This document shows positions 50,158 to 61,195 of a DNA stretch of 64,000 bases, in pieces. The translations under genes were made by a program, and so were the position numbers. This DNA comes from Cystobacter ferrugineus (GTDB lineage: Bacteria > Myxococcota > Myxococcia > Myxococcales > Myxococcaceae). Numbering within the stretch: the first letter of the stretch is position 1; the number at the start of each line of letters is the position of its first letter. The stretch spans positions 558,001-622,000 of the forward strand of contig NZ_MPIN01000002.1 of assembly GCF_001887355.1 (NCBI RefSeq), in the 5' to 3' direction. A model generated the notes under the pieces. It was not told where the DNA came from and did no database searches. It was given only the letters and a program-made list of their open reading frames with translations.

Positions 50158-51953
50158 AGGTGCCAGAGGATCTCAAGGGACTGTCGGCGTGGACCCTGCG
50201 GCCGTCCTGGTGGGGCGGGGTGCTGGGTCTGCTGTTGTCGTTGCTGTACGGCTACGTCACGCACTCGCTGCCCCTCGGGGACATGGGGTTGTTCCTCGGG
50301 TTGGTGGGGGCGGTGATGACGATGAACGTCCTGCTGACCTACGCCCAGGAGCGGCACGCGTTGCGGGTGCTGTGGGCGCTGGAGCAGGGGCGGCTGCCTC
50401 CCACTCCGGACAACCTGCGCCGGGCGCTGCAGGAGGTCCGCCGCGTTCCCGGCCGCTCCTTCTGGTTCACCCTCCAGGGGTGGTTGGGGGGCACGCTGCT
50501 CCTGGCGGCGACCTACACCTCGCTGTCCGCGGTGCACTGGATGGTGGGGGTGCGCATCGGCCTGGTGGGCGTGTCGCTCGGGCCGCTGTCCTCCATGCTC
50601 GTCTATCTGCTGGTGGTGCGCCGCAGCCGCCGGGCCGCCGTGCTCATCGCGGACAAGGGCTTGTCGCCGCAGGAGGTCATCTCCGCCCTGCCCGCCGAGC
50701 GGTTGCGGCTGCGCAGGCGCCTGGTGTTGTTCACCGCCGTGGCGGTGCTCTGCCCGTCCGTCTTCATCCTCGACGTGTCTGTCAGCCGCACCATGGACAC
50801 CTTCGATCAGATCCTCGAGACGAGGGATCTCCAGGCGCAACAGCGCGTGGTGCATCAGGCGCGCCGGGCCACGGGCCTGCCGCTGGGGGTGCTCGCCGGG
50901 CTGGTGGTGGTGTTGGTGCTGGGCACGGCGTACGTGGCGGGCACGGCGCTCGCCGAGCCGCTGCGTGCCCTGTCGGAGGACGCCACGCGCATCGCCCAGG
51001 GCGAGGTGCGCACCCCCCGCTTCATCCCCGCCGAGGACGAGGTGTGGGCCGTGTCCGCCGCCTTCACCCGCATGCAGGCGCAGCTCGCCCAGGCGCTCGT
51101 GCAGTTGCAGCGCGCGGGGCTGCAGATCTCCTCCACCACCGAGCAACTGGTGGCGACGTCCGCGGATCAGGAGTCCGGCGCGGGCGAGCAGGCCGTGTCG
51201 CTCAACGAGACGCGTGCCACCACCGAGGAGCTGGCGCGCTCGGCGCAGCAGATCGCCGTCAACGCCGAGTCGGTGTCCGCCATGGCGGAGACCACCTTCG
51301 GGGCGGCGCAGAGCGGGCAGCGCAGCGCGGCGGCCTTCCTCGCCGCCATGCACCGGATGAAGGGCGACAACCAGGCCATCGCCGATGCCGTGGTGCGGCT
51401 CAACAAGCGGGTGCAACAGATTGGCAAGGTGGTCGAGTTCATCAACGAGATCGCCGACAAGTCGGACCTGCTCGCGCTCAACGCCGAGCTGGAGGGCACC
51501 AAGGCGGGCGAGCCCGGCCGGGGCTTCTCGCTCGTGGCGGCGGAGATGCGCCGGCTGGCGGAGAACGTGCTGTCCTCCACCCTGGCCATCGAGCGGCTCA
51601 TCGATGAAATCCGCGACGCCACCCAGGCCGCGGTGATGGCCACGGAGGCGGGGCTGAAGACGACGGAGCGGGGCGCGTCGTTGGCGGCGCAGGTGGACGC
51701 GAGCCTGGGCCTCATCCTCGAGCTGGCGCGGCAGACGTCCCACGCCGTGCGCTCCATCTCGCTGGCCACCCAGCAGCAGCAGACGGGCACGGATCAGCTC
51801 GCCGCGGCCATGGGCGACATCCTGCGCGTGACGGAGGAGAACGCCGAGGCCACCCAGCAGATGGTGGCCGCCAACACGGACCTGTCCGCGCTCGCGCGCG
51901 ACTTGAAGGCCACCGTGCAGCGCTTCCGCGTGGCGGACCGGGAGGGGGCATGA
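50154..51953 (+). CDS. Methyl-accepting chemotaxis protein with six-helix membrane domain
   Basis: A 599-residue receptor. Unlike classical MCPs it has no large periplasmic domain; six membrane helices are seen in residues 17-270 (LGLLLSLLYGYVTHSL, MGLFLGLVGAVMTMNVLL, LGGTLLLAATYTSLSAVHWM, IGLVGVSLGPLSSMLVYLLV, LFTAVAVLCPSVFILDV, LGVLAGLVVVLVLGTAYVAG). A HAMP-like part follows, then the signalling hairpin tip ADKSDLLALNAELEGTKAGE (Frz-like LEGTKAGE, not IEAARAGE). The GTG start at 50154 overlaps the CheW-like gene's stop. GGGGAGG precedes it. Confidence 0.88.
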   Translation: MKVPEDLKGLSAWTLRPSWWGGVLGLLLSLLYGYVTHSLPLGDMGLFLGLVGAVMTMNVLLTYAQERHALRVLWALEQGRLPPTPDNLRRALQEVRRVPGRSFWFTLQGWLGGTLLLAATYTSLSAVHWMVGVRIGLVGVSLGPLSSMLVYLLVVRRSRRAAVLIADKGLSPQEVISALPAERLRLRRRLVLFTAVAVLCPSVFILDVSVSRTMDTFDQILETRDLQAQQRVVHQARRATGLPLGVLAGLVVVLVLGTAYVAGTALAEPLRALSEDATRIAQGEVRTPRFIPAEDEVWAVSAAFTRMQAQLAQALVQLQRAGLQISSTTEQLVATSADQESGAGEQAVSLNETRATTEELARSAQQIAVNAESVSAMAETTFGAAQSGQRSAAAFLAAMHRMKGDNQAIADAVVRLNKRVQQIGKVVEFINEIADKSDLLALNAELEGTKAGEPGRGFSLVAAEMRRLAENVLSSTLAIERLIDEIRDATQAAVMATEAGLKTTERGASLAAQVDASLGLILELARQTSHAVRSISLATQQQQTGTDQLAAAMGDILRVTEENAEATQQMVAANTDLSALARDLKATVQRFRVADREGA

Positions 51954-53797
51954 GCCGTCCCGTCTTGTCGTGGGTGCACCGTCCCTTCAGCCGCCCCCTG
52001 ATGGGCGCCATCGTCACCGCCAACGTCATCACCGCGCTGCTCGGCTCGCGCTACGCGCTGTTGACCGCCAGCATGCGCCTGAAGGAGAGCCTGACGCTGT
52101 TCCTCTCCCTGATGGGCAGCTTCTGTCTGGCGGCCATCGGGGTGGTGTGGTTCCTGGCCCTGCGCCGGCTGCGCGTGCTGCGCGAGGTGGAAGTCCTGCG
52201 TCCTCCCGTGGCGCCCGAGCGGTTGAGCCAGGCCCTGCTGGAGAGCCACCGCCTGGCCGACTTCGCCTTCGTCGCCACGCTGGTGGGGTGGCTGCTGGCC
52301 GCCGCGTTCGCCAACGTCGCGCTGTGGAGCCTGGGGGGGTTCACGGGCTCCCTGGTGGAATTGCGCACCTGCCTGCCGGGCCTGCTCTTCGGGCCGCTCG
52401 CCGCGCTGCTCACGTACTGCATGGTCACCCTGCGCGCTCGCGCGGTGGGCTTGATCCTGTCGTCCCGGGGACTGACGCACCCGCAGGCCATCTCCGTGGT
52501 GCCCAGGCGCGCGCAGATCCGCCTGCGGCTCATCCTCTTCACCGCCATCGTCGTGGTGACGCCCGCGGTGTTCATCTGGGACGTGTCCTCGGTGCTGACC
52601 CACCGGGCCTACGATGAGCTGTTGGCGACGAGCCCGGAGCGCCAGGCGGCCCTGGTCGAGGAGCTGCGCATGGACGCCATCGAGGTGGGGGGCGCGATGT
52701 GCCTGCTCGTCTTCGCCGTGGCGCTGGCGGCCGCCTACCTGGGCGGCACGCTCCTGGGCCGGCCCATGCGCCAGCTCGGCGAGGCGGCCCACCACATCGC
52801 CGAGGGAGACCTCAGCCAGCCCCGCCTCATCCCCGCGGAGGATGAGATCTGGTCCGTCTCCGCCGCCTTCTCCACCATGCGGGCGCACCTGGCCGGCGTG
52901 CTCGCGCAGTTGCAGCGCGCGGGCAGCCGCATCGGCACCACCACCGAGGAGATCCTCGCCACCTCCTCGCGCTACGAGGCCGGGGCCGCCGAGCAGGCCA
53001 GCTCCCTGGATCAGACGAGCGCCACCACCGAGGAGCTGGCGCGCTCGGCGCGGCAGATCGCCGAGAACGCGGGCTCCGTGGCGGAGATCGCCCACAAGAC
53101 GCTCGCGGCGGCCAAGGCGGGCCAGGCCAGCTCCGAGGCCTTCATGGAGACCATGAGCCGCATGCGTCACGACAACCAGGCCATCGCCGCGGCGGTGGCC
53201 CGGTTGAACAAGCGCGTGCAGCAGATTGGGAAGATCGTCGAGTTCATCAACGGCGTGGCCGACAAGTCGGACCTGCTCGCGCTCAACGCCGAGCTGGAGG
53301 GCACCAAGGCCGGTGAGGTGGGGCATGGCTTCTCGCTCGTGGCGGCGGAGATGCGCCGGCTCGCGGAGAACGTCATCGAGTCCACCAAGGAAATCGAGGG
53401 GCTCATCGAGGAGGTGCGCGATGCGTCGGGTGGCGCGGTGATGGCCACCGAGGGCGGCGTGCGCGCCACCGAGACGGGCACCACGCTCGCCCAGCAGGTC
53501 TCCGAGTCGCTGCGGCAGATCGTCGAGCTGGCCGGGAGGACCTCGGACGCGGTGCGCGCGATCTCCCTCGCCACCCAGCAGCAGCAGGGCGGCACGGACC
53601 TGCTGGCCGAGGCCATGGCGGACATCCTGCGCATCACCCAGCAGAGTCACAACGCCACCAAGCAGGTCATCAGCGCCAACGGAGACCTGTCCACGCTGGC
53701 CCGGGACCTGAGGAGCGTGGTGGAGCGCTTCCAGATCGAATCCTCCGCGTCCTCCTCCTCGTCCTCGTCTTCCTCCTCTCCGGGAGCGTTCGGGTGA
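51950..53797 (+). CDS. Second six-helix MCP, tandem paralogue
   Basis: A 615-residue paralogue of the preceding receptor with the same plan: helices such as LMGAIVTANVITALLGSRYA and GAMCLLVFAVALAAAYLGG, then HAMP-like residues and the tip ADKSDLLALNAELEGTKAGE. Membrane domains have diverged far more than the signalling domains, as expected if the two receptors sense different things and share one kinase. The C-terminus carries a run of serines from a TCC-type microsatellite. It overlaps both neighbours by 4 nt. Confidence 0.88.
   Translation: MSRPVLSWVHRPFSRPLMGAIVTANVITALLGSRYALLTASMRLKESLTLFLSLMGSFCLAAIGVVWFLALRRLRVLREVEVLRPPVAPERLSQALLESHRLADFAFVATLVGWLLAAAFANVALWSLGGFTGSLVELRTCLPGLLFGPLAALLTYCMVTLRARAVGLILSSRGLTHPQAISVVPRRAQIRLRLILFTAIVVVTPAVFIWDVSSVLTHRAYDELLATSPERQAALVEELRMDAIEVGGAMCLLVFAVALAAAYLGGTLLGRPMRQLGEAAHHIAEGDLSQPRLIPAEDEIWSVSAAFSTMRAHLAGVLAQLQRAGSRIGTTTEEILATSSRYEAGAAEQASSLDQTSATTEELARSARQIAENAGSVAEIAHKTLAAAKAGQASSEAFMETMSRMRHDNQAIAAAVARLNKRVQQIGKIVEFINGVADKSDLLALNAELEGTKAGEVGHGFSLVAAEMRRLAENVIESTKEIEGLIEEVRDASGGAVMATEGGVRATETGTTLAQQVSESLRQIVELAGRTSDAVRAISLATQQQQGGTDLLAEAMADILRITQQSHNATKQVISANGDLSTLARDLRSVVERFQIESSASSSSSSSSSSPGAFG
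53737..53778 (+). repeat. Serine-coding TCC/TCG microsatellite
   Basis: A run of TCC, TCG and TCT triplets codes for about twelve serines in the last residues of the second MCP. Slippage here would change tail length and, because the overlapped cheA start follows, could also affect coupling. Confidence 0.6.
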
Positions 53798-57382: not shown

Positions 57383-58708
57383 GTGCCTCCCTCCCGCTCT
57401 CCCTTCGCTCCCATCCACGCGCTCGTGGCGCGGCGCACGGGCACGGCCCTGAGCGAGCTGCAGAGCCGGCGCATCGACGAGAAGCTGGCGGGACGGCCCG
57501 GTGGGATGAGCGCGCGCTATCTGCTCTACCTGCAATCCCCCGCGGGAGCCGCGGAGCTGGCCGAGCTCATCGACGCCATCTCCGTGCAGAAGACGGAGCT
57601 GTTCCGGGACGAGGCCCAGCTCGAGGCGCTGCGCACGCACGTGCTGGCGCCGCTGGTGGCCCGAGCCCGCCGGCCGCTGCGGCTGTGGAGCGCGGGGTGC
57701 GCCACCGGCGAGGAGGTGGCCACGCTGCTGGTGATGCTCGCCGAGGTGGGCGCGGATCCGGCCAGCACGGTGCTGGGCACGGACATGTCGGAGACGGCGA
57801 TCGCGCGCGCGCGCGAGCTGTGCTTCAGCTCGGAGCAGCTCCAGCGGGTGCCGCTTGGCGTGCGGGATCGCTGGTTCGTGTCCCTGGGCTCGGGCCGTCA
57901 CTCGCTCGTCGGACACCTGAAGGAGCGCGCCAGCTTCCTCGTCCACAACCTCATGGAGCCGTCCTATCCCTCGACGGTGGAGGGGCGGGGCTTCGACATC
58001 ATCGTCTGCCGCAACGTGCTCATCTACCTCACCCCCGAGTCCTTCTCCCGGGTGGTGGAGTCCCTCGCCGAGCGGCTCGCGTCCGAGGGTCTGCTGGTGC
58101 TCTCTTCCACCGAGCCGCTGCTGAGCGCTCCGCCGAGCCTGCGCACCCTGCGCTATGCGGACGCGTTCTTCTATGGCCGCGCGCCTCCCGAGGCCCCGCC
58201 CGGTGTCCCGGCCCCTTCCATGCCGGCTCTGTCCGCGGTGCGCCCCTCGCAGTCGGGTCTGCCCGCGGTGCGCCCCTCGCAGTCGGGTCTGCCCGCGGTG
58301 CGCCCCTCGCAGTCGGGTCTTCCCGCCGTGTCTCCCACCAGGCCGGGTGATCCTCCGGAAGCCGCTCGCGGCGAGGACTCCGCGCATCGGGATGCCGACG
58401 CGCTCTTCAGTCAGGTACTGGACGCGGTGGGCAGTCAGAGCCAGCCGGATCCCCAGACGGAGGACAGCTTGCGGCGGTGCCTCTTTTTGGATCCGGATCT
58501 GGCCGCGGCGCGCTATCTGCTGGGCCTGGTATTCGAACAACGCGGCGCGTGGACGGATGCGGCGGTCGAGTACCGGCGCGCGTTGCGCTCCCTGGAGGAG
58601 GGCAGGGCGCGCGCCACCCCTTTCTTCACCAATAACTCCCGGCTCCAGATGGCCTGCGTGCGGGCCATCGAGCGCGTGGAGCGGGCCACTCCCCCGACGT
58701 CGCGTTGA
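57383..58708 (+). CDS. cheR: CheR methyltransferase with C-terminal TPR-like domain
   Basis: A 441-residue receptor glutamate methyltransferase. N-terminal helical domain, then the SAM-binding fold: LWSAGCATGEEVATL, TVLGTDMSETAIARA, and FDIIVCRNVLIYL. A linker (about 275-325) contains three tandem GLPAVRPSQS units; the last ~110 residues are TPR-like (LAAARYLLGLVFEQRGAWTD), as in FrzF. It starts at GTG 57383, 7 nt after the cheB stop. It closes the chemosensory operon. Confidence 0.93.
   Translation: MPPSRSPFAPIHALVARRTGTALSELQSRRIDEKLAGRPGGMSARYLLYLQSPAGAAELAELIDAISVQKTELFRDEAQLEALRTHVLAPLVARARRPLRLWSAGCATGEEVATLLVMLAEVGADPASTVLGTDMSETAIARARELCFSSEQLQRVPLGVRDRWFVSLGSGRHSLVGHLKERASFLVHNLMEPSYPSTVEGRGFDIIVCRNVLIYLTPESFSRVVESLAERLASEGLLVLSSTEPLLSAPPSLRTLRYADAFFYGRAPPEAPPGVPAPSMPALSAVRPSQSGLPAVRPSQSGLPAVRPSQSGLPAVSPTRPGDPPEAARGEDSAHRDADALFSQVLDAVGSQSQPDPQTEDSLRRCLFLDPDLAAARYLLGLVFEQRGAWTDAAVEYRRALRSLEEGRARATPFFTNNSRLQMACVRAIERVERATPPTSR
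58231..58334 (+). repeat. 30-bp tandem repeat in the cheR linker
   Basis: About 3.3 copies of a 30-bp unit (CCCGCGGTGCGCCCCTCGCA then GTCGGGTCTG) encode GLPAVRPSQS. The first copies are identical at the base level. The same peptide motif occurs in the PATAN protein at 10106. Confidence 0.85.
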
Positions 58709-58786: not shown

Positions 58787-59638
58787 ATGCGAAGGCTTGC
58801 CCTCATCGCCCTCCCTTTCATGCTCTCGGGCTGCTTCTACCCGGCGGCTCGCGGACGCGCGCTGGAGACCCGGCTGGATCAACTCGATGCCTCCCAGGCG
58901 CAGATCCAGGCGGAGCTGAAGCGCACGCGCGAGCAGCTCGACGCCACGCTGCCGCTCATCGACGAGAAGATCGCCCAGGTGTCCAAGGCCCTGGACGGTC
59001 TGGACAAGGCCTCGCGCCGCTCGGGCGCGGACATCGGCATCCAGCTCCAGAAGACGGTGGAGGACCTGGCCCAGCTCCGCGGCCAGGTGGAGACGTACGT
59101 CTACAAGATTGGCGAGCTGGAGGCGGCGCTCGCGAAGACGACCGAGGACACCGACAAGCGGCTGCTCGAAATCAAGGGAGAGCAGGCGCTCAAGGAGGCC
59201 GAGGCCCGCAAGAAGGCCGAGGAGCTCAAGCGTCCCACGGACAAGAAGGAGTTCCTCGCGCTGGCCCAGGACAAGGCCAAGGCCGGTGACGTGACGCTCG
59301 CCCGCCAGCTCTACGGGGAGTTCATCAAGAAGTGGCCCAAGGACGCGCTCGTGGCCGAGGCCCACTTCGGGCTGGGCGAGAGCTACTTCGCCGAGGACAA
59401 GTGCCGCGAGGCCCTCTTCGAGTATGGCAAGCTCTTGCAGGAGCACCCCAAGGCGGCCTCCACGCCGGAGGCCTACCTGCGCTCCTCGGAGTGCTTCCAG
59501 AAGCTGAAGATGCAGGATGAGGCGCGGCTGGCGCTCGAGGAGCTCGTGAAGGGCTACCCGAAGTCCGATGCGGCCAAGACGGCCAAGACGCGGCTCGCGG
59601 AGCTGGACAAGGCGAAGAAGAAGGGAAGCAAGAAATGA
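58787..59638 (+). CDS. YbgF/CpoB-like coiled-coil TPR lipoprotein
   Basis: A 283-residue lipoprotein (lipobox FMLSGC). A coiled coil fills about 25-150 (LDQLDASQAQIQAELKRTRE; VEDLAQLRGQVETYVYKIGE). A TPR/YbgF C-terminal domain (about 155-270) follows: ARQLYGEFIKKWPKDALVAE, AHFGLGESYFAEDKCREAL. YbgF/CpoB works with Tol-Pal and PBP1b in envelope constriction. The tail is Lys-rich. Its stop overlaps the ATG of the candidate selenoprotein (ATGA), so the two are translationally coupled. Confidence 0.85.
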   Translation: MRRLALIALPFMLSGCFYPAARGRALETRLDQLDASQAQIQAELKRTREQLDATLPLIDEKIAQVSKALDGLDKASRRSGADIGIQLQKTVEDLAQLRGQVETYVYKIGELEAALAKTTEDTDKRLLEIKGEQALKEAEARKKAEELKRPTDKKEFLALAQDKAKAGDVTLARQLYGEFIKKWPKDALVAEAHFGLGESYFAEDKCREALFEYGKLLQEHPKAASTPEAYLRSSECFQKLKMQDEARLALEELVKGYPKSDAAKTAKTRLAELDKAKKKGSKK

Positions 59639-60744
59639 GCAGGCGTCCGTTCCTCCTGGCGCTGTTGGCGCTGCTGCTCTCGCCCTGGGTGGCGGGGGCG
59701 GAGCCCAAGCACGTGGTGCTCCTCTTCACCGGAGACAATGGGGGCGAAATCGCCCCCTGTGGTTGAAGCCACAACCCGTCTGGCGGTCTGGCCAGACGAA
59801 AGACGGTCTTCTCGCGGGAGCGCGCGAAGGGGCCGGTGCTGGTGCTGGATTCAGGAAACGCTCTCTTCAAATCACCCGCTCCCGGAGGCATGGCTCGGGA
59901 GAAGGAGCGGGCCGTGTTGTTGCTCGAGCAGATGGATGCCCTGGGCACCACGGCCATGGCCGTGGGCGCGCGCGACCTCACCCTGGGGGCCGACTTCCTT
60001 TCCCAGACGGTGAAGGGCAAGAAGCTCAAGCTGCTGTCCGCCAACCTCGTGGACGCGGAGGGCAAGCCCCTGTTCGCCGCTTCCACCGTGGTGACGGTGG
60101 GCGGGGTGAAGTTCGGCGTGGTGGGCGTATCGCCCCCGGGCCCGGTCTCCACGGCCAAGGGAGTCAAGGGCCTGCCTCCGGCCAAGGCCGCCCTCGCCGA
60201 GGCACGCCGGCTGCGCGAGAAGGACAAGGTGGACGTGGTGGTGCTGCTCGCGGCGCTTCCCCAGACCGAACTCCAACCCCTGTCGGTGCAGGTGGGCACC
60301 ACGGTGGACTTCATCCTCCAGTCCCACGAAGGCCGGGCGTTCCTGCCCCAGCACAACGACTTCGCCGTGCTCCTCGGGGCGGGCGATCGGGGCCGGCAGG
60401 TCGCCTGGCTGGAGCTCTCCGTGGAGGGGAAGGGGCCCTTCCACGATCTCTCGTCCGCCGAGCGAGCCCAGCAGGGCGTCAAGCTCGTCGAGGAGAACCT
60501 CCAGCAGGCCCGGCGCAGCCTCGCGGCCGCCAAGGACGAGACCGTCCGGGCTTCCTGGCGGGAGACGATCGCCAGCCTGGAGAAACGCATCCAGCAGCTC
60601 TCCCAGGAAGCGAAGCTGGTCGGCAAGGCGGGCGAGCGCACCTTCCGCTTCTCCTACCTCCAGCTCGGCGGCGATGTGGTGGATGATCCAGGCCTGAAGC
60701 GGCTCGTGGAGCGAATCGAGGCCCCGGGGTCCGCATCTCATTAG
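59635..60744 (+). CDS. Candidate selenoprotein: exported metallophosphatase-like protein with in-frame UGA
   Basis: Read with UGA (59764-59766, codon 44) as selenocysteine, the gene gives 369 residues. A signal peptide ([19 protein letters not shown]) leads to [32 protein letters not shown]. From family knowledge, relatives with a 5'-nucleotidase/metallophosphatase fold have PCGCS...GGLARR here, so UGA replaces the second Cys. The rest is intact: [42 protein letters not shown], then a helical tail. Metal-ligand positions look partly altered, so a redox or binding role is as likely as hydrolysis. Start ATG 59635 overlaps the YbgF-like gene's stop. Automated calling would probably begin at GTG 59836 and miss the signal and the Sec site. 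The alternative is a nonsense mutation; the hairpin at 59777-59798 argues against it. Confidence 0.8.
59764..59798 (+). promoter_or_regulatory. UGA codon with bacterial SECIS-like hairpin
   Basis: After UGA (59764-59766), CGTCTGGC (59777-59784) pairs perfectly with GCCAGACG (59791-59798), leaving the loop GGTCTG (59785-59790). The loop's GGUCU starts 18 nt after the UGA. E. coli fdhF, from memory, has the same GGUCU at the same 18-nt distance, where SelB binds. The codons TCT, GGT, AGA and CGA inside the hairpin are rare for this GC-rich genome, as if selected for RNA pairing. Confidence 0.8.
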
Positions 60745-60865: not shown

Positions 60866-61129
60866 ATGAAGCCCGATCTGCACCCGGTTTACGCCCCGTC
60901 TCGCATCACCTGTGCGTGCGGCAATGTCGTCGAGACGCGGTCCTCGCGTGGCTCGTTCTCCGTGGAAGTCTGCTCGAACTGCCACCCCTTCTTCACCGGC
61001 AAGTACAAGCTGCTCGACACCGCGGGCCGCGTGGAGAAGTTCCGCAAGAAGTACGCCGCCAAGCCCGCCGAGGGCGCCGCGGAGGGCGCCGCTCCCGCCA
61101 AGAAGGGCGGCAAGAAGGCCGAGGCCTGA
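60866..61129 (+). CDS. rpmE: 50S ribosomal protein L31
   Basis: An 87-residue large-subunit protein of the zinc-binding (C+) type: CACG near residue 16 and [10 protein letters not shown] near 37 supply four cysteines. [20 protein letters not shown] is the usual start. The tail is longer and richer in Ala/Lys than in E. coli ([18 protein letters not shown]). ATG 60866 follows GGGAG. A terminator with a T-run follows. Confidence 0.95.
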
Positions 61130-61195
61130 TCGTCTCGCCCTGTAGTCCGTCGTCACCGCCGGGCACGGCGCCGGAAGTCCTCCCCGAGGGCTTCC

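Follow-up and report, generated by a model that had tools for sequence, protein, structure and literature searches.

A putative SECIS and a conserved upstream hairpin at the in-frame UGA of an UshA-like selenoprotein gene of Cystobacter ferrugineus and its relatives

In the usual description of bacterial selenocysteine (Sec) insertion, a UGA codon and a downstream hairpin, the SECIS, suffice. The E. coli SECIS has a bulged U in its upper stem, and the GGUCU loop of the fdhF element begins 18 nt past the UGA. At the protein level, the NCBIfam family NF041198, UshA-like (seleno)protein (UshA_like_PCGU), was listed as a COG0737 UshA-like, CxU selenoprotein in an ocean survey (PMC2398784), and it is also present in a 2026 selenoprotein catalogue (PMC13188914). 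The selenoproteins of the group considered here are little described in the literature searched. The window analysed in this study is the whole stretch of 64,000 nucleotides between positions 558,001 and 622,000 of contig NZ_MPIN01000002.1 of Cystobacter ferrugineus (assembly GCF_001887355.1), and it carries on its forward strand a gene for an UshA-like selenoprotein of 369 aa (59635–60744, start ATG, terminal codon TAG). The open reading frame contains a single in-frame UGA, at codon 44 (59764–59766, + strand), which is predicted to be read as Sec within the motif P-C-G-U; the codon is UGA in 81 genomes of the host family, and Cys is found here in other homologues.

The UGA is followed on the same strand by the hairpin CGUCUGGC-GGUCUG-GCCAGACG (59777–59798), whose arms occupy 59777–59784 and 59791–59798 and whose apical loop GGUCUG lies at 59785–59790. 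An earlier note on this DNA, which began the feature at 59764, that is, at the UGA itself, had claimed a perfect 8-bp stem, a GGUCUG loop and a GGUCU 18 nt past the UGA, all of which are present in the sequence. Its comparison of loop and distance with fdhF was borne out by the E. coli MG1655 fdhF record, which also gives 18 nt, and each codon that it had called rare is indeed so, as judged from its share in long ORFs with high GC3 in the window (AGA 0.5%, CGA 2.9%, TCT 3.2%, GGT 6.8%). The hairpin falls within the ranges given for bacterial SECIS elements, with a stem of 4–16 bp, a loop of 3–9 nt, G in the first two loop positions and a UGA-to-loop distance of 16–37 nt (here 18 nt). A scan of the window at the Rfam gathering thresholds gave no match. 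The assertion that such an arrangement is very unlikely by chance has to be qualified: an 8-bp stem with GGUCU arose in only 0.09% (~0.0009) of synonymous resamplings with the peptide fixed, but looser patterns are common, with 43 of the 1218 TGAs of this GC-rich window (3.5%) followed by a loose bSECIS-like 8-bp hairpin and with UGA-N17-S-GGUCU, in which GGUCU stands at +18 and is preceded by G or C, at 65 sites in the genome vs 70 for the reversed control. In the 30 of these 65 sites that were inspected, a long stem was found only at the window site, which was also the sole strong match when a SECIS covariance model was run against the genome; the next two full-length matches are without GGUCU and look spurious. 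Chance figures drawn from a single sequence are only suggestive, and a comparison of homologues was therefore needed.

Homologues were collected by searching 96 host-family genomes with the protein and 195 genomes from across the phylum with a profile, two sets that overlap widely. A contig search with the single protein returned no matches, and the alignment of the post-UGA part succeeded as query. The UGA sites examined comprised 81 within the host family, in which UGA-bearing homologues show 38% to 92% identity, and 15 loci from other families. GGUCU was found exactly at +18 in all 96 UGA homologues vs 1 of the 27 Cys homologues (Fisher p = 9e-26, a value overstated by the relatedness of the sequences), and a Desulfobulbaceae homologue has it at +18 as well. 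The earlier note had named as refuting evidence homologues that keep the UGA and lose the stem, or a stem devoid of compensatory changes; no UGA homologue was without the GGUCU loop, and among 59 distinct sequences 24 double-sided changes were counted in the stem vs 6.3 ± 2.2 in shuffles, with 88.3% of cells paired vs 82.2% in shuffles and lower scores for slid registers. Since only 34 of the 59 sequences form the outer pair 15-34, the conserved element amounts to about 6 bp plus GGUCU; in these alignments, the 8-bp stem is a local form, typical of close relatives only. As far as sequence comparison can tell, conservation among homologues settles the choice between a SECIS and a chance hairpin. 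Two Cys homologues outside the host family, L154 and L157, carry GGUCU near the site (in L157 exactly at +18), possibly as relics of a former Sec site. Phage relatives were sought and none was found.

The host genome encodes the required machinery, with scores of 301.9 bits for SelB, 556.3 bits for SelA and 382.9 bits for SelD, together with a tRNA-Sec of 71.3 bits with a UCA anticodon. A second selenoprotein, the formate dehydrogenase alpha subunit FdhA (L186, C10:80613-81962), was located in the same genome by a molybdopterin family search and is also among the 65 UGA-N17-S-GGUCU sites; it has an in-frame UGA with GGUCU 18 nt after it, so that an independent gene shows the same signal. The replacement of Sec by Cys provides a clean natural experiment in G035, a complete genome whose orthologue has Cys and the loop GGCUUG, in which SelA, SelB and tRNA-Sec were not found and both RNA elements are eroded; other sampled members of its genus carry UGA, and its siblings G036 and G037 have UGA together with SelA, SelB and tRNA-Sec. 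Likewise, G050 (98% complete) has Cys, and none of SelA, SelB and tRNA-Sec was found in it. G083 has UGA, yet no Sec machinery was found in this assembly of 900 contigs (87% complete). SelB was not found in the UGA-bearing G046, G008 and G093, a gap that is probably due to assembly or threshold because SelA and tRNA-Sec are present. The conserved loop, the covarying stem, the presence of the machinery and the loss of the SECIS with the Cys codon thus support the SECIS interpretation, and we hold the UGA-SECIS reading to be correct with high confidence. The UGA at 59764 would be decoded as Sec, with SelB carrying Sec-tRNA-Sec predicted to bind the hairpin at 59777–59798 via its GGUCU loop, as in E. 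coli fdhF.

Concerning its surroundings, the selenoprotein gene is preceded on the + strand by a TPR/YbgF-like lipoprotein gene (58787–59638) whose UGA stop overlaps the selenoprotein ATG (AUGA), and the two genes likely form one operon. A gene for a bL31-like ribosomal protein, recognised from its translation by eye, lies downstream on the same strand (60868–61131); its product had no Pfam match, and by motif at least 48 UGA homologues have the same downstream neighbour, as does the Cys orthologue of G035. Several genomes (G003, G005, G002, G006, G034 and others) have a Sec copy plus one or two Cys paralogues at separate loci. A public record titled Comamonas sp. KCTC 72670 (L243) carries a Myxococcus-type copy of the selenoprotein gene and is probably mislabelled. 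Elsewhere in the window, an in-frame tandem repeat (58222–58348; 30-nt unit, 3.6 copies, 94% matches) encodes VRPSQSGLPA repeats inside a CheR-like/TPR gene, and imperfect short 21-nt tandem repeats (53635–53678 and 50542–50581) lie within chemoreceptor-like genes, two of which resemble tandem duplicates.

The window protein scored 172.9 bits against NF041198, below the curated cut-off of 275, and aligned with positions 9-375 of the 519 in the profile; it is therefore placed in a sister branch of that family and not as a strict member. It shares with NF041198 the PCGU/PCGC motif and the kinship to the 5'-nucleotidase N-domain, and all 24 aligned members match the NF041198 model; in contrast, the window protein is shorter, and its final part is a pair of long helices. 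The AlphaFold model (pLDDT 88, with the post-Sec residues 45-48 poorly resolved) resembles the 5'-nucleotidase N-domain (Foldseek 1oie, E 1.6e-18). Of the UshA metal ligands, D41 is kept, H43 is replaced by G, D84 by N and H217 by A, and N116 is variable; the catalytic His (H117) is replaced by R, and positions 252 and 254 were not reliably aligned. Judged from this alignment, most of the phosphatase metal site has been lost, and an active nucleotidase is disfavoured for the same reason. The C42-G43-U/C44 motif is invariant in the 24 aligned sequences, which, together with the loss of most metal ligands, suggests that the protein probably performs Se/S redox chemistry at the C-G-U pair. The product is an exported UshA-like domain deprived of most phosphatase metal ligands.

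A further hairpin precedes the UGA. Hairpin I (GGGGGCG-AAAU-CGCCCCC, 59740–59757, + strand) has its last base 6 nt before the UGA, and neither this hairpin nor the catalogued protein family was covered by the initial, sequence-only reading. A limited literature search turned up no description of a hairpin 5' of bacterial UGA-Sec codons. Its seven perfect pairs are present in 79 of the 81 UGA genes of the host family, whose sequences are not independent owing to kinship, vs 0 of 18 Cys homologues, which are mostly apparent paralogues, although L029 and, it seems, L114 are orthologues in place. A scan for synonymous constraint showed the codons 5' of the UGA to be almost as fixed as those of the SECIS. 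In the UGA set, the 8-codon windows under the strongest constraint in the gene begin at codons 46-48 and 36-37, and these do not stand out in the Cys set. Double-sided changes were observed at two pairs, C-G to A-U in L081 and G-C to U-G in L156, a covariation equalled by 1 of 500 shuffles, and in L091 and L094 two positions changed together, which in our reading would keep RNA pairing in a shifted register. Hairpin I is quite probably under selection as a nucleic-acid structure. Outside the host family, L139, L143 and L156 keep it intact or almost intact, and it is absent at the remaining UGA loci, where the SECIS persists; it is therefore not generally required for Sec insertion and represents a lineage-specific addition. 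Within this lineage, as these alignments indicate, conservation of the hairpin at 59740–59757 as an RNA structure is confined to genes with UGA. Between the two hairpins, fold prediction for this genome gave a candidate middle hairpin II with the UGA in its loop (UGUGGU-UGAA-GCCACA, 59758–59773, + strand), which failed the covariation test. The codons UGU GGU directly 5' of the UGA (59758–59763) are nearly fixed (79/80 and 75/80 UGA genes, respectively); GGU is rare, and hairpin I does not account for this fixity.

As to what hairpin I may do, the folding models suggest that it would sequester arms rich in G and C which would otherwise invade the SECIS, and that with the arms so locked the SECIS could fold, or refold after each ribosome. 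Over 20 sequences, the mean modelled probability of the SECIS core was 0.82 with the natural upstream sequence vs 0.63 after its synonymous replacement (p = 3e-5, optimistic because the sequences are related), and this decrease favours insulation; in L082-L087, from the middle of the family, the modelled SECIS probability is modest (0.2-0.6). Of the roles considered for hairpin I, insulation of the SECIS from misfolding is the likeliest, with a probability a little below even. Alternatively, it could space ribosomes or act on them like a speed bump, where slowing before the UGA would let the SECIS refold and SelB load. Such pacing would suit its position 7-24 nt before the UGA and its very GC-rich stem, and it agrees with what has been remarked in print about the refolding of the SECIS and the pile-up of ribosomes at fdhF; however, when the UGA occupies the A site, hairpin I would be at least partly in the mRNA exit path, and modelled support exists for insulation. 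Pacing as the role of hairpin I is rather unlikely, although the two ideas are compatible, and it is likely that the hairpin acts with the SECIS in one of these two ways.

Additionally, hairpin I might be a DNA palindrome, the operator of a regulator, and not an RNA element, given that GGGGGCGANNTCGCCCCC is a perfect palindrome that compensatory changes would preserve too. However, only one perfect copy exists in the 64 kb window, its position, within a coding region and next to the UGA, is fixed, L029 and L114, the Cys orthologues apparently in place, have it in degraded form, and the register-shifted variant of L091 and L094 retains RNA pairing; moreover, scans for sigma-70-type promoter-like sites, which are weak in this group, gave none in the vicinity. 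An operator is thus improbable, and less likely than the RNA roles. Even less credit is given to the idea that the upstream codon constraint is a mere by-product of the peptide and of GC-rich codon usage. From these two factors a perfect 7-bp hairpin is expected in 5% of synonymous resamplings for GGEIAP and 1.1% for GGEVAP, but it was observed in 79 of 81 genes, with Val39 encoded by GTC in 37/37 against a codon usage of 20% and with the rare GGU codon in use; Cys homologues vary freely here, as do other Gly/Pro/Ala sites of the gene. Finally, a reading in which the UGA truly ends translation or marks a pseudogene, and the hairpin after it is due to chance, could draw on the chance-level frequency of UGA-N17-S-GGUCU in the genome and on the 3.5% of window TGAs with loose SECIS-like hairpins, but is extremely unlikely in view of the phylum-wide conservation, the open frame and conserved protein past the UGA, the full Sec machinery and the parallel loss in G035.

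With hairpin I regarded as an RNA element, the Myxococcaceae Sec sites described here are probably composite signals, made of an upstream hairpin and a SECIS, gained within Myxococcota and dropped where Cys takes the place of Sec. A 5' hairpin whose conservation goes with the UGA form would constitute an extra cis element; if this is true, it may help to explain how Sec insertion competes against termination and how the SECIS stays folded in a GC-rich mRNA, and the upstream hairpin could sharpen selenoprotein prediction.

Compared with the known systems, the selenoprotein and its SECIS are new members of kinds already known, the UshA-like selenoprotein family having been catalogued before. The window SECIS agrees with the consensus bacterial model (PMC13188914, Fig. 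2) in its 6-nt loop, the GG at the loop start, the 8-bp stem, the spacing of 18 nt (16-37 in the model) and an energy below -7.5 kcal/mol. It shares with E. coli fdhF the GGUCU loop and its distance from the UGA, and differs from it in forming a straight perfect helix that lacks an equivalent of the bulged U. A further difference lies on the other side of the codon: fdhF is without an upstream hairpin and the consensus model (PMC13188914, Fig. 2) covers nothing 5' of the UGA, whereas the window gene carries a hairpin there.
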